Shown here in pieces: positions 8,415 through 14,051 of a DNA stretch of 39,626 bases (its first letter is position 1; every line of letters begins with the position of its first letter). The stretch comes from Nanobdellota archaeon (lineage in GTDB: Archaea > Nanobdellota > Nanobdellia > Tiddalikarchaeales > Tiddalikarchaeaceae). A program made the translations under genes and the position numbers. The notes under the pieces are model-generated. The model was given only the letters and a program-made list of their open reading frames with translations, did not search any database and was not told the origin of the DNA. The DNA lies in NCBI GenBank assembly GCA_016931175.1, contig JAFGFH010000023.1:1-39626 (forward strand). The letters run 5' to 3'.

Positions 8415-9194
8415 ATGAAAAAAGTGGTTTTAATCACTCACGCTAATACTAATTGGGACAATAACAAGTTCGCCAAGAAAGGCATAGAAGACTTAATAAG
8501 TGCAGGGCTTCCCGTGGTTGAACTAGCAGACGCGGACGATACAGGGAAACTGCGCGAGAGTTACGTTAAACACAATGGAGAGGTTTACCTATCAAACAGC
8601 GGCACATTCTCAGACAGTAATGTTAAAGATAATGAATTATTGAAAGAGAATAATATTTACTTATTAACAGGGGGATTCTTCACCAAGTGCCACAAGAGAA
8701 CATTCAATGACTTGGTAAGGAACAGTATTAAAGAAGATATTGAAATAATTCTTGCCGGCGACGCCATCTTCAACTATGACAAGAGAAGTGAAGAAGAACA
8801 AGAACCTAAAAGTGTTCCCATGTCATTATCCACTAATGAAGAAATTATTAATATGATTGCAGAAAATTATTTCAAAAACAAAGACCCTTCAGGCATAACC
8901 ACACTAAGCCAAGTCAGGAATTCAGGAGTAAACAAAGGAGACTTGTACTTGTTAAGCATAAACGGCAAACAATACTTGATAGGAAACAAACACATCTTTG
9001 AAGCAATTAACAAGAATTGCCCTCTTAACAGGAAAATAAGACATTTGAAGTCATTAATAAATCCTAGAATAGCACAAGAATACTTAATTGAAGAATACGC
9101 TCCTGAAAAACACGGAGATTTCAAAGATATTCCAATAATTGGTAAAAGAGTTAATATAAAATATTTCATAACAGCAAAAGAAGCACTGAATTAA
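8415..9194 (+). CDS. Unknown protein, weak isochorismatase-like hydrolase resemblance
   Basis: 259 aa, soluble. It begins with a Rossmann-like strand (MKKVVLITHANTN). Residues 80-115 read IYLLTGGFFTKC, then HKRTFNDL and IILAGDAIF, which recalls the isochorismatase region G-x-x-T-x-x-C-V-x-x-T-x-x-D-A ... V-x-D-A, with C92 as nucleophile. The Asp and Lys of that family's triad are not obvious, so the assignment is weak. The C-terminal third (SQVRNSGVNKGDLYLLSING) looks like a separate alpha/beta region. It is transcribed divergently from the methyltransferase. Confidence 0.4.
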   Translation: MKKVVLITHANTNWDNNKFAKKGIEDLISAGLPVVELADADDTGKLRESYVKHNGEVYLSNSGTFSDSNVKDNELLKENNIYLLTGGFFTKCHKRTFNDLVRNSIKEDIEIILAGDAIFNYDKRSEEEQEPKSVPMSLSTNEEIINMIAENYFKNKDPSGITTLSQVRNSGVNKGDLYLLSINGKQYLIGNKHIFEAINKNCPLNRKIRHLKSLINPRIAQEYLIEEYAPEKHGDFKDIPIIGKRVNIKYFITAKEALN

Positions 9195-9248: not shown

Positions 9249-10775
9249 ATGCAGTACGAAACAGAATACGAAACTGAAGACTTATCCATTGAATCACCCA
9301 CTTTAGAAGGATTTGGTATTAAATATTCTCTTCCAAAAAAACTGCCTTTCAATATCTCAACATACGACCTTGGCCAGCCGTTAAATCAGAGAGAGATTGA
9401 TAATTTTTCAACAAGAATCGCAGATTTCCTTAAAGACATTGACTATTTCAACTGGGTTCTTAGAAACAGTCACGGCGTTCACGAATCAACAGGCATGCCT
9501 GATTACATGGTTTGGTCAACCGATTCTGAAGCTTGGGGTGATGATATTCAAGCAGTAAAAGAAGGAAGTTTAGTAACATTTAAGCACGTTAAAGGCCACG
9601 GGTGGCATAATATAATGATTTCAACATCCCAGTTGCTCAGCCAGGCAGCTACGGGTTACTTGCTGACAAATGATGAGAGGATGGGAAGAATAGTAGAACA
9701 ATACTGCAAAGGTATCACTGCGACTATGAAAGGAATGGTCTTCGGCGAAGATGATGAATTAGAGTACATAATGGCGCGCAACATACTGCCTGAAAGCCAT
9801 AATTTCTTAATGAAGAATGGCAGAGAAAAGGCAGTGGATTACTCAGAATGGCATAATGAGGAAGTTCACTGGAACGCTCAAAGGTTCAAGATTTCAAACA
9901 ATCCTTACTGGGGAGAGGTTTACGTCACGAATACGCGCTCAAAGGATGACCTGCCCCACATATTCAGAGCAGCAGCTTTCCTGCCTTACATTATTTCAAT
10001 AAGTGATGATGAAAAAATAATCAAAGCAGCTGCTGAGACTTGCACTTATTTGCAGGGCTTCTGCACTGACATTGTTGAAAACAATTTCCACATAAGAACA
10101 AAGAATTCAAAAGGGGAAGCGTTGATACCGAAAGGTGACTTGGCGAGTTTTGTTAACTATAACTGGATTGCTCCATTAGCAGAGAATAATGCAAGACTAT
10201 CAACAGTTCTAATAAGCAATAATGGAAAAAACAATATTAAGTTCTCAGATGGGATTGGAGGATTTTACGAATACTTTGCTAGAAAGATTAATTACTATAA
10301 TTATAAGATAATAAGAGGATTCCATATGAGTGCAATTATTCACTCATTAATAAACGGGCGCAAAAATACTGCTTATAACATGCTCAAAGGATTAATAAAC
10401 AGGGCGGATAATTTGATGAAAGGAAAAGGCCACAAAAAAGGTATGAATAATCCTCGCTGGAAAGCAGACCTAGCAACATTCTTATTGCGCGCAGCAGCGG
10501 TTGGCATGCCATTAACCTCAAAACAAGCAAGGCTGGTTCATAGCGAGTATGAAAAGTCAATTAGTGAGTATGAGAAGTTTAACAGGTGGGATTTATGGGA
10601 TGAATCAGTTCCTGACGGAGTTTACGGTTCAAACGGAGGCTACAAACCCAGAAGTAATAATTTAATTAAGATAGAGAACCTCGCACTAATACTTGAACTG
10701 CATGGTTCACCCTTCACCAACCCTTTAGGAGCAGAAGTTGTCAATCCAGAGATAATAAAAGAAGTATTAAGTTAA
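9249..10775 (+). CDS. Conserved-looking 508-aa protein of unknown function, possible alpha-toroid
   Basis: 508 aa, no signal peptide or membrane segment. It is rich in Trp, His, Tyr and acidic residues in clusters typical of an active-site cleft: HGVHESTGMPDYMVWSTDSE, VKGHGWHNIM, EWHNEEVHWNAQRF, and near the end RWDLWDESVPDGVYG. Long amphipathic helices alternate with these loops, so an (alpha/alpha)n barrel as in glycosidases or lyases is possible, but I do not recognise the family. The TATA-like CTTTTAAGT lies about 32 bases upstream. It is a monocistronic plus-strand gene facing a convergent glycosyltransferase. Confidence 0.6.
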   Translation: MQYETEYETEDLSIESPTLEGFGIKYSLPKKLPFNISTYDLGQPLNQREIDNFSTRIADFLKDIDYFNWVLRNSHGVHESTGMPDYMVWSTDSEAWGDDIQAVKEGSLVTFKHVKGHGWHNIMISTSQLLSQAATGYLLTNDERMGRIVEQYCKGITATMKGMVFGEDDELEYIMARNILPESHNFLMKNGREKAVDYSEWHNEEVHWNAQRFKISNNPYWGEVYVTNTRSKDDLPHIFRAAAFLPYIISISDDEKIIKAAAETCTYLQGFCTDIVENNFHIRTKNSKGEALIPKGDLASFVNYNWIAPLAENNARLSTVLISNNGKNNIKFSDGIGGFYEYFARKINYYNYKIIRGFHMSAIIHSLINGRKNTAYNMLKGLINRADNLMKGKGHKKGMNNPRWKADLATFLLRAAAVGMPLTSKQARLVHSEYEKSISEYEKFNRWDLWDESVPDGVYGSNGGYKPRSNNLIKIENLALILELHGSPFTNPLGAEVVNPEIIKEVLS

Positions 10776-10825: not shown

Positions 10826-11467
10826 CTAGCTTCTTAAGAACTCTATAATATCCTTTAATTTAAAATAAGAACTTCTTAAATTATTATTGTAAATGCAGGA
10901 GATTGGAACCTCACTTATTGAAAGCCTCTTCTCAACCGCCTGCTTTAATGTGGTTTTTTCAATGTTAAAGCAGTTGCCGTCAAAGCTTAAACTATTAACT
11001 GCTCTATTATTATAAAGTCTGAAACCGCTTTGAGGGTCTGTTACTTTAACACCAGTCTGCAAATTAATAATTAGAGAAGCAAAGAAGTTGCCTAATCTTC
11101 TCGTAATAGGCATGCTTGAATCAACCCTACTTCTAGTGCCAATAATAATGTCTCCTTTTGCTTTTAAGAAATTAGGAATCTCTTCAGGCAAGTGCTGCAA
11201 GTCAGCGTCTAAAGTTATAATCTTCTCTGCTTTCTTACTCTTCAAGTAATTAACGCCTATCTTAACCGCGTTAGCCTTTCCAGAGTTTTCAGCAATATTA
11301 ATTACTTCAACACCTTTAATCCTGCTAAGAATTAAAGACGTCTTGTCAGTGCTGCCATCATTAACAATTAAAACATTACTAACCTGCTTCTTAGCTCTAG
11401 CAACCACTTCTTTTATAGCCCTCTCCTCATTAAAGGCAGGGATTAAAACCCAAAGATTATCATTCAT
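10826..11467 (-). CDS. Family 2 glycosyltransferase (dolichyl-phosphate mannose/glucose synthase-like)
   Basis: 213 aa from the ATG at 11467. A GT-A fold is clear: WVLIPAFNEE at the start, VLIVNDGSTDKT, ITLDADLQHLPEEI (DxD-type metal site) and the TDPQSGFRLYN acceptor segment. There are no C-terminal membrane helices, as in the short DPM1 type. Predicted role is sugar transfer from NDP-sugar to a lipid phosphate at the membrane. The ORF stays open to an ATG at 11560 (31 more residues), but family members begin right at VLIPAFNEE and a TATA-like TTATTTAAGT sits about 25 bases before 11467. The longer start cannot be excluded. Confidence 0.85.
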   Translation of the reverse strand: MNDNLWVLIPAFNEERAIKEVVARAKKQVSNVLIVNDGSTDKTSLILSRIKGVEVINIAENSGKANAVKIGVNYLKSKKAEKIITLDADLQHLPEEIPNFLKAKGDIIIGTRSRVDSSMPITRRLGNFFASLIINLQTGVKVTDPQSGFRLYNNRAVNSLSFDGNCFNIEKTTLKQAVEKRLSISEVPISCIYNNNLRSSYFKLKDIIEFLRS

Positions 11468-11664
11468 TACTTTATGGAATAATAAATTACTTAAATAAGT
11501 TATCTTTCCTCCCTGCAGCTTAGACAATAACTCCTGTGAACGCATAATGTTTTGCCTCATTTAGGACAAATCCACTTTCCATCGTCTTTTTTTTTAATAA
11601 AATCGCCAATCCTTATATCTTATTTATATAAAGTTTTAAAAAATTTAGGCAAGTTTAATATTAC

Positions 11665-12282
11665 ATGTTTGAGAGAACTATTTTCATAATAGGCTTGTTT
11701 CTCTTCTTAGCAGCAAGCACTTTATTCCCTGCTTTGAAAAAGAAAAAGGACGAGTTCACTTCCATTAACATGATGGTGAGCTTTGTAACAATGATTTCTT
11801 ACGCTGTTCTAATAGCAGGAATTGGAGCAATAATATCACCAATGGGCAACTTGATTTACCCTACAAGGTGGCTGTTTTACATAATAAGCTGCAGTTTGCT
11901 AATGTACGAAGTAGGTATAATATTGAAGAAGTCCAAGATTGAAATTTTAGAAATGATATTCTTCAATGCAGCAGTAATGCTTACAGGATACTTTGCCAGC
12001 ATAACACTCGGTTCTGCAAAACTAGTATTCTTCTCAATAAGCACGGCTGCTTACTTGGCAAACCTGTTGTTAATACATGATAAGACAGCTAAAGAGAATA
12101 GTTTCATGAAAAGTGTTAAATGGTATGTTACAATTATGTGGAGTTTATTTCCAATAACTTGGATGCTTGGACCAACAGGTTACGAGCTCTTAAACACAAG
12201 CACAGCAGCAGTAATATACTTACTGCTTGACATTGCAACAAAAACAGTTTTCGGATACTATACTGTTAAGAAAGAGATGTAA
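11665..12282 (+). CDS. Microbial (type 1) rhodopsin with Arg at the primary counterion position
   Basis: 205 aa, seven membrane helices. Helix E has FFSISTAAYL (bacteriorhodopsin ISTAA), helix F WSLFPITWMLGPTG (bacteriorhodopsin W182, P186 and W189 map to W159, P163 and W166), and helix G LLLDIATKTVFG, where D189 and K193 match D212 and the retinal Schiff-base K216. In helix C, YPTRWLFYIISCSLLM aligns W69 with W86, which puts R68 where proton pumps have Asp85, Y72 at Thr89 and L79 at Asp96; Arg82 aligns with Y65. A normal proton pump is therefore unlikely. No retinal synthesis or transducer gene is adjacent. Two TATA-like boxes lie upstream (11624-11645). Confidence 0.85.
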   Translation: MFERTIFIIGLFLFLAASTLFPALKKKKDEFTSINMMVSFVTMISYAVLIAGIGAIISPMGNLIYPTRWLFYIISCSLLMYEVGIILKKSKIEILEMIFFNAAVMLTGYFASITLGSAKLVFFSISTAAYLANLLLIHDKTAKENSFMKSVKWYVTIMWSLFPITWMLGPTGYELLNTSTAAVIYLLLDIATKTVFGYYTVKKEM

Positions 12283-12290
12283 ACCTTTAT

Positions 12291-12623
12291 TTATTCTTTT
12301 ATTATTATTTCAAAAAAGCTTGAATTTCCTGAATTAATTATTTGGGATTCTAAATCATTAGCTCCCATGTTCCCGTACTCTTCATTCTTTCCCGCTTCAG
12401 GATCATGGTATTGAACAATAACGTCATTGCAGCAGTGGGACGCGTAATATATCAGTATAAAATGGTTATTCTTGGGAACTATAAGCACTGATTTCCTGGA
12501 AAAAACATTATCCACTGATTTTTGAAGAGTGTCATTTTCGTGCCTTCGGCTTAAATTAACCTTAACTGCTTTAACAAACTCGTAATGCGAAAGCAAATTA
12601 TTCCACTCATGGTTCTTAACCAA
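12291..12623 (-). CDS. Unknown 110-aa protein
   Basis: 110 aa, not recognised. A mixed alpha/beta protein with a central strand KSVLIVPKNNHFILIYYASH, a CC pair and VQYHDPEAGKNEE; the C-terminus is FFEIIIKE. No ATG is available near the front. The start used is TTG at 12623, with a TATA-like CTTAAAAA about 22-25 bases upstream. It follows the 86-aa gene on the same strand by about 30 bases, so the two may be expressed together. Its stop lies 9 bases from the convergent rhodopsin gene. Confidence 0.45.
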   Translation of the reverse strand: MVKNHEWNNLLSHYEFVKAVKVNLSRRHENDTLQKSVDNVFSRKSVLIVPKNNHFILIYYASHCCNDVIVQYHDPEAGKNEEYGNMGANDLESQIINSGNSSFFEIIIKE

Positions 12624-12654: not shown

Positions 12655-12915
12655 TTAATAGGGGGAATAAAATAATGAAAAAGGGCTTTTCTTTATAGCT
12701 TCAAGATTACGGTTAAGGCAGTCAATTATTTTAGTAACCGGCTGAAGAACCTTTCTGGCATACCTTGTCTTATTATTACATTTTTGATAAAACTCTTCAA
12801 CGTGTTTTAACGCATCACAGCAGCCTTCTTGATTATAGCGAAGGCGCGCGTTTTCAAGACAAACTACTTCTGAAACGTCATGAGATACAATATTGTCATG
12901 AATGAATTTATTCAT
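12655..12915 (-). CDS. Unknown 86-aa Cys-containing protein
   Basis: 86 aa, not recognised. Predicted helical, with four or more Cys (VVCLENARLRYNQEGCCDAL, YQKCNNK, IIDCLNR) that could bind metal or form disulfides. There is no signal peptide. A TATA-like TTTTTTTAAAG lies about 25-30 bases upstream on the minus strand. It precedes the 110-aa gene on the same strand. It is divergent from the PIN-domain gene. Confidence 0.45.
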   Translation of the reverse strand: MNKFIHDNIVSHDVSEVVCLENARLRYNQEGCCDALKHVEEFYQKCNNKTRYARKVLQPVTKIIDCLNRNLEAIKKSPFSLFYSPY

Positions 12916-13013: not shown

Positions 13014-14051
13014 ATGACTTTAAAAGACTCTTGGAACAGGTTTAAAACAGGAATTAAAATAGCTTTTAATAAGAAATCCTTTGACGAATTCTCAGATCTT
13101 CAAAAGTACAAGTTAAGGCTTGAAAAAACTGAGAGAAAGGTTCAGAACAAAATACCTGCTATCATGAACTTCTTTAATGACAAGTATAGTATAGTGGCTG
13201 ATGAGTATTATAAGAAAGGAAGGCAGGATGTTATAAACTTCGTTAACGGAGTATGCGGAGAAGGCGATGCTAAACCTAACAGGATTATTATTGACGATTT
13301 ATTGGATAAAGTGGATGAACTCCATGCAGAGTATGACATAATAAAAAAGACTGCCAGTGATGAAGACATGCAAAAATTAGCTAAGAAGAACGCGACTAAA
13401 CTATTCAGCGTTGAATTTGCTCAAGTCAAATCTTACTTTAAAGGTGAAACAAAATCAGAGTGTGATAAGATGTTAAACCACGTATGCTTATGCACCACTA
13501 ACTTCTACTTAATGAGCAGGAATTTCTTCGCAGACGGCACTGCTGCAATAATCGACACGAATTACGTTTCAAGAGTTAAAGAGTTCAATTCAGGAGTATC
13601 ATTAACCCCTAAGAATATAGAAGGCTGCAGTATTGACAGGTTCATAATTCCTCACAGCGTGTGCACTGAGATTAGAAAAACGCTTAAATACGATGCTAAC
13701 AAGGAATTGAAAGAGTTCGTCAAATCAGTTCTTGAAGACTTACTAAATCCTGGAAACATTATTGTTCCTGACCTTAATGCCAAGAAATTCCTTCCGAAAG
13801 ACTTGATTGAAAGATTCACTAAAGAGAACGGGGAACTGCACAAAGCAGACCTTGAAATAATATACATTTACAAAAAGTTCGGCGACCAGTTCAAAACAGT
13901 TTATTTGCTGTCCGATGACAGTGACTTGATTGAATACATGAAAGAGTTGTCAGAACAAACGCATAAAAATTTAGTAGTAAAATCCTCAAATAAAGGCAGC
14001 AAGTTCAATTTTGAAGAGTATTACAGTTTCGGCGATATTTCAAGCATTTAA
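13014..14051 (+). CDS. PIN-domain protein with N-terminal helical region
   Basis: 345 aa. The C-terminal part (about 175-335) has the four acidic positions of a PIN ribonuclease in order: IIDTNYVS (D181), PHSVCTEIRK (E219), HKADLEIIYI (D279) and LLSDDSDLIEY (D301-D304). The first 170 residues are helical and Lys/Glu-rich, with a KLRLEKTERKVQNKIP coiled-coil-like start; this extension is not a known partner domain to me. No antitoxin-sized gene is directly attached, so a classical VapBC toxin is unlikely. A role in RNA processing next to ribosomal genes is possible. The TATA box TTATATTTTTATA lies about 20-26 bases upstream. Confidence 0.75.
   Translation: MTLKDSWNRFKTGIKIAFNKKSFDEFSDLQKYKLRLEKTERKVQNKIPAIMNFFNDKYSIVADEYYKKGRQDVINFVNGVCGEGDAKPNRIIIDDLLDKVDELHAEYDIIKKTASDEDMQKLAKKNATKLFSVEFAQVKSYFKGETKSECDKMLNHVCLCTTNFYLMSRNFFADGTAAIIDTNYVSRVKEFNSGVSLTPKNIEGCSIDRFIIPHSVCTEIRKTLKYDANKELKEFVKSVLEDLLNPGNIIVPDLNAKKFLPKDLIERFTKENGELHKADLEIIYIYKKFGDQFKTVYLLSDDSDLIEYMKELSEQTHKNLVVKSSNKGSKFNFEEYYSFGDISSI

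Follow-up and report, generated by a model that had tools for sequence, protein, structure and literature searches.

Work on Asgard archaea described schizorhodopsins (SzRs) as inward proton pumps. In Shark Bay mats, putative members of the family have been reported from Bathyarchaeota and Parcubacteria as well as from DPANN and Asgard archaea (PMC7495880). The helix C counterion site of these proteins is occupied by Phe or Tyr, and in their photocycle reisomerization precedes reprotonation (PMC13093656). In LaSzR2, a measured inward pump, Asp184 is the presumed counterion and Lys188 forms the Schiff base (PMC7704677).

The window analyzed here, the whole 39,626-nucleotide stretch of contig JAFGFH010000023.1 from a Nanobdellota archaeon, contains an intact ORF with an ATG start that is the sole Bac_rhodopsin gene of the host genome (887 kb, 96.6% complete). 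The encoded protein is a genuine type-1 microbial rhodopsin. It matches Bac_rhodopsin (PF01036) in Pfam over residues 5-198 (E 4.3e-26; 92.2 bits against a cut-off of 24.6), and a PDB sequence search ranks SzR4 (7e4g) first (E 1.8e-41, 43% identity) and AntR (9or2) second (E 3.6e-33), with the following rhodopsins at E 4e-14. We propose, with a probability of about 0.88, that the protein is a schizorhodopsin whose archaeal host has a reduced and DPANN-like genome, that it likely acts as a retinal-scavenging inward H+ pump, and that its gene was probably gained horizontally. The host is one that we take to be DPANN-like from its genome size and gene content. Because putative SzRs have already been reported in DPANN, CPR and Bathyarchaeota lineages (PMC7495880), the present gene is a further, ordinary member of a known family. 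The features on which the identification is based are the following:

11665..12282, + strand: schizorhodopsin-family type-1 rhodopsin gene (205 aa), whose best fold-search match is 7e4g (TM 0.92)
11863..11928, + strand: helix C codons, residues 67-88 by the alignments (model helix 67-86)
12229..12243, + strand: helix G codons by the alignments, from D189 (Asp212 in bacteriorhodopsin, the counterion) to K193 (Lys216, the retinal Schiff base residue)

The preliminary description of this locus had recognized a rhodopsin with Arg in place of the Asp85 counterion of bacteriorhodopsin (BR), Tyr at the Arg82 position and an R-Y-L triad in helix C, and had suggested that an anion may bind at Arg68. 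We determined the register of helix C from alignments that set the protein against SzR4 and AntR, against BR plus nine other type-1 proteins, and against ten relatives fetched for this analysis. In every alignment made R68 is equivalent to Arg82, and the remaining equivalences are W69 to Tyr83, F71 to Asp85, Y72 to Trp86, S75 to Thr89, C76 to Thr90 and E82 to Asp96. Furthermore, when helix C was scored ungapped in 13 registers against five references (BR, NpSRII, SzR4, AntR and a Buchananbacteria homologue), a single register scored positively with each of them, and it was always the one pairing R68 with Arg82 (+29, +30, +85, +101 and +117, respectively), compared with -19, -20, -34, -44 and -39 for the register pairing R68 with Asp85.

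By sequence comparison, then, the helix C triad is F71-S75-E82 (F-S-E) and Arg82 is conserved. Since only the R68-Arg82 register scores positively, the claimed novelty is a three-residue reading error, in which Y65 had been placed at the Arg82 position. The preliminary description would have regarded as its own refutation an alignment with closer homologues that shifts helix C so as to bring a carboxylate to the counterion site; these homologues do shift it, but the Asp85 site then holds Phe and no carboxylate. There is no particular reason to suppose that R68 binds an anion, because no Arg stands at the Asp85 site and R68 is an ordinary, unreplaced Arg82. Once helix C is realigned, nothing supports the reading in which Arg occupies the counterion site and the rhodopsin binds an anion or is photo-inactive; R68 falls at Arg82 in the ten relatives, SzR4 and AntR as well, and we give this reading practically no credence. 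The misreading is hereby corrected: the rhodopsin encoded by this gene has no Arg at its counterion site.

Outside helix C, the earlier assignments agree with the alignments: K193 is the intact Schiff base Lys, D189 corresponds to Asp212, and helices E and F keep their retinal-pocket residues, as does helix G. The F, S, C and E/D residues of helix C together with the D..K pair of helix G occur in SzR4, AntR and each of the ten fetched relatives, and as a set in none of the 10 other type-1 proteins compared. F71/S75/E82 thus provide the aromatic counterion-site residue and FSE-type triad of schizorhodopsins, and D189/K193 their helix G Asp/Lys pair (Asp184/Lys188 in LaSzR2). Two Bathyarchaeota relatives (L009:5992-6630 and L011:5992-6630) have Asp at the E82 position, giving F-S-D in place of F-S-E, and Thr at BR115; Glu81 of LaSzR2, the equivalent of E82, is not strictly conserved (PMC7704677).

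The residues expected of other rhodopsin classes were compared at the same positions. A BR-type outward proton pump would have Asp at BR85 and a carboxylate at BR96; F71 and E82 occupy these sites, and the earlier judgment that BR-like outward pumping is unlikely is sustained by the first of them. The xenorhodopsin pattern pairs Asp at BR85 with Pro at BR212 (PMC7704677), where the present protein has F71 and D189. Halorhodopsin-type anion pumps carry Thr or Asn at BR85 within NTQ or TSD motifs (PMC9601134), again the site of F71, and heliorhodopsins combine ESL in helix C and SxxxK in helix G with an inverted topology (PMC9601134), as against FSE, DxxxK and the loop charges of an N-out protein here.

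The structure prediction that had been put forward as a check gave a confident seven-helix model. The AlphaFold2 model, built from an 11-row alignment, has a mean pLDDT of 91.6 and a pTM of 0.88, and a fold search against the PDB returned the three 7e4g chains first (TM 0.91-0.92 by query length) and AntR next. Lys and Arg residues are distributed unevenly among the model loops, with about 13 on the side of the A-B, C-D and E-F loops and the C-terminus versus 2 on the opposite side, which argues for the usual N-out orientation and, with the seven predicted helices, for the arrangement of a schizorhodopsin.

Comparison with individual family members points in the same direction. With SzR4 the protein shares 43% identity over its whole length, the helix C residues F-S-C-E, Tyr at BR Trp86 and the helix G D/K pair, and its predicted fold superposes on SzR4 with TM 0.91-0.96; the two differ in that SzR4 has Trp at the BR Trp80 position, where the subclade of the present protein has P66, and in the four additional residues of the cytoplasmic E-F loop of the present protein. 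The resemblance to LaSzR2 (PMC7704677) extends from Asp184/Lys188 and D189/K193 to Glu81 and E82, whereas the proposed extracellular donor Asp172 of LaSzR2 corresponds, by numbering offset rather than by sequence alignment, to N177, a position at which SzR4 also has Asn. AntR (9or2, 9ork, 9ot0) is 38-39% identical and has the F-S-E triad in a near-identical helix C (TRWLFY..SCSLLMYE), but presents Thr, Phe and Asp where the present protein has N101, W166 and T171.

To place the protein among its relatives, we searched genome contigs. A single-sequence search of these contigs recovered no rhodopsin relatives, and a search with a four-row alignment gave ten relative loci. The phylogeny that the preliminary description had called for places the present protein inside an SzR clade of 13 members, including SzR4 and Asgard and Bathyarchaeota homologues, with support of 100/99. 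Its sister is a protein of a Buchananbacteria (CPR) genome with which it shares 54% identity and the YPTRW motif (96/92; 96/93 without the long-branch rows), and AntR lies inside the SzR clade on a long branch without a resolved position. We regard the precise position as only moderately secure, because a 14-row tree rooted on BR, with very long branches, does not resolve the sister pair. The nearest relative is found in MAG Buchananbacteria Bin_492 and the second nearest in archaeon Bin_444, both of which, judging by their names and accession series, probably come from the Shark Bay study that reported putative SzRs (PMC7495880). It is conceivable, but rather unlikely in our estimation, that the YPTRW subclade represents an SzR lineage circulating among reduced-genome archaea and CPR bacteria, with retinal supplied by neighbours and an altered extracellular proton uptake (P66, E174 and no Asp172 equivalent).

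By homology with the characterized SzRs, the present protein would bind all-trans retinal at K193, absorb light and transport H+ inward. Deprotonated D189 would be the only counterion, as had been suggested earlier, and this is probably so, given the neutral aromatic F71 at the Asp85 site. Light would convert the retinal to the 13-cis form, the Schiff base proton would exit past E82 to the cytoplasm, and the retinal would revert to all-trans before reprotonation, the Schiff base then taking a proton from outside, for a net inward H+ transport.

The supply of retinal bears on this scheme. Family searches of the host genome revealed no phytoene/squalene synthase (SQS_PSY; seven control genomes positive), no Brp/Blh (PF15461; two plasmids annotated with the gene both positive) and no RPE65-type oxygenase (two controls positive), so that the retinal-forming dioxygenase gene for which a search had been advised was not recovered, and the holoprotein would need external retinal, probably scavenged from neighbours. 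Blh and RPE65 likewise gave no match in the other SzR-bearing genomes searched (L003, L005-L012; G475, G477-G484), which makes external retinal appear usual for the SzR family; all these absences rest on family searches in incomplete genomes. The gene thereby sharpens the puzzle of an inward proton pump in cells apparently unable to make retinal.

The same absences, together with the lack of a rhodopsin in the four other genomes searched from the family, could be taken to mean that the host, unable to make retinal, carries the gene as a passenger that is decaying or without function. We assign this only a very slight chance: the ORF is intact and its functional residues are all kept, even though identity to the nearest relative is just 54%, and the searched Asgard, Bathyarchaeota and CPR genomes with an SzR are without recognizable Blh and RPE65 too. 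Little more probable is a photosensor, in which proton movement would be incidental and a partner protein would relay the signal. Why a cell should pump H+ inward is an energetic puzzle, and the physiological role of such pumping is unclear (PMC13093656); the host genome is also reduced. All this would suit a sensor; yet Pfam searches of the neighbours identified no recognizable transducer gene adjoining the rhodopsin, E82 and C76 are retained, and the 205-aa protein has no extra domain. Both the sensor and the photo-inactive protein considered in the preliminary description are less likely than an inward proton pump, because every schizorhodopsin-type residue is retained.

A TspO/MBR protein (E about 1e-51) is encoded near or directly beside the SzR gene in both nearest relatives, the CPR bacterium and the archaeon (L003:7886-8362 and L004:3924-4403), as the third gene on in one and adjoining in the other, and the two TspO proteins are 53% identical to each other. 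A functional link between TspO and SzR is not specific, since same-family genomes that lack rhodopsin have TspO too, and the host carries it on a different contig from the SzR gene.

The schizorhodopsin gene stands between flanking genes that can be traced in a genome of the same family (L047):

10826..11560, - strand: upstream flank, family 2 glycosyltransferase (PF00535 E 2.4e-22; 64% identical at L047:1614-2261)
13014..14051, + strand: downstream flank, protein of unknown family (345 aa; homologue at L047:2691-3677, 29% identity, E 1.9e-23)

In L047 about 0.43 kb separates the two flanking genes, a stretch that holds one small ORF but no rhodopsin; in the window the SzR gene and two small ORFs stand in between. 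Rhodopsins were present in 2 of the 378 class members and 2 of the 371 phylum members sampled. Because rhodopsin is rare in the class and a same-family genome keeps the flanking genes without it, acquisition by horizontal transfer, as had been suggested before, is likely, probably from a pool of genes in which CPR bacteria also share; transfer explains the pattern more simply than the alternative, loss in the relatives. A forced clade of the present protein and that of the other rhodopsin-bearing archaeon of the class was rejected (p-AU 0.019 and 0.009, values to be read loosely, as the pair was picked after the tree had been seen). The contig bears archaeal ribosomal proteins in an order shared with relatives, which makes a binning error unlikely. 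The locus adds a well-placed SzR to those known, in an archaeon whose genome is reduced; its contig also encodes archaeal ribosomal proteins, and L047 offers a site lacking rhodopsin for comparison.

Searches of phage genomes and viral contigs found no rhodopsin relatives, and base composition gives no sign of recent transfer (GC 0.356 and GC3 0.393 for the gene, compared with averages of 0.377 and 0.395 over the other genes of the window). No Rfam match was found around the rhodopsin gene, and the window ORFs at 8415-9194, 9249-10775, 12291-12623, 12655-12915 and 13014-14051 had no Pfam or NCBIfam match. One candidate promoter element precedes the gene:

11623..11632, + strand: possible archaeal TATA box (TTTATATAAA), 33-42 bases before the ATG, on weak evidence

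The 8-mer TTTATATA of this box occurs 4 times in the window versus 4.28 expected, that is, at chance level. At the site of L047 that corresponds to the rhodopsin locus, the small ORF (L047:2367-2609) encodes an 80-aa, apparently membrane-spanning protein.
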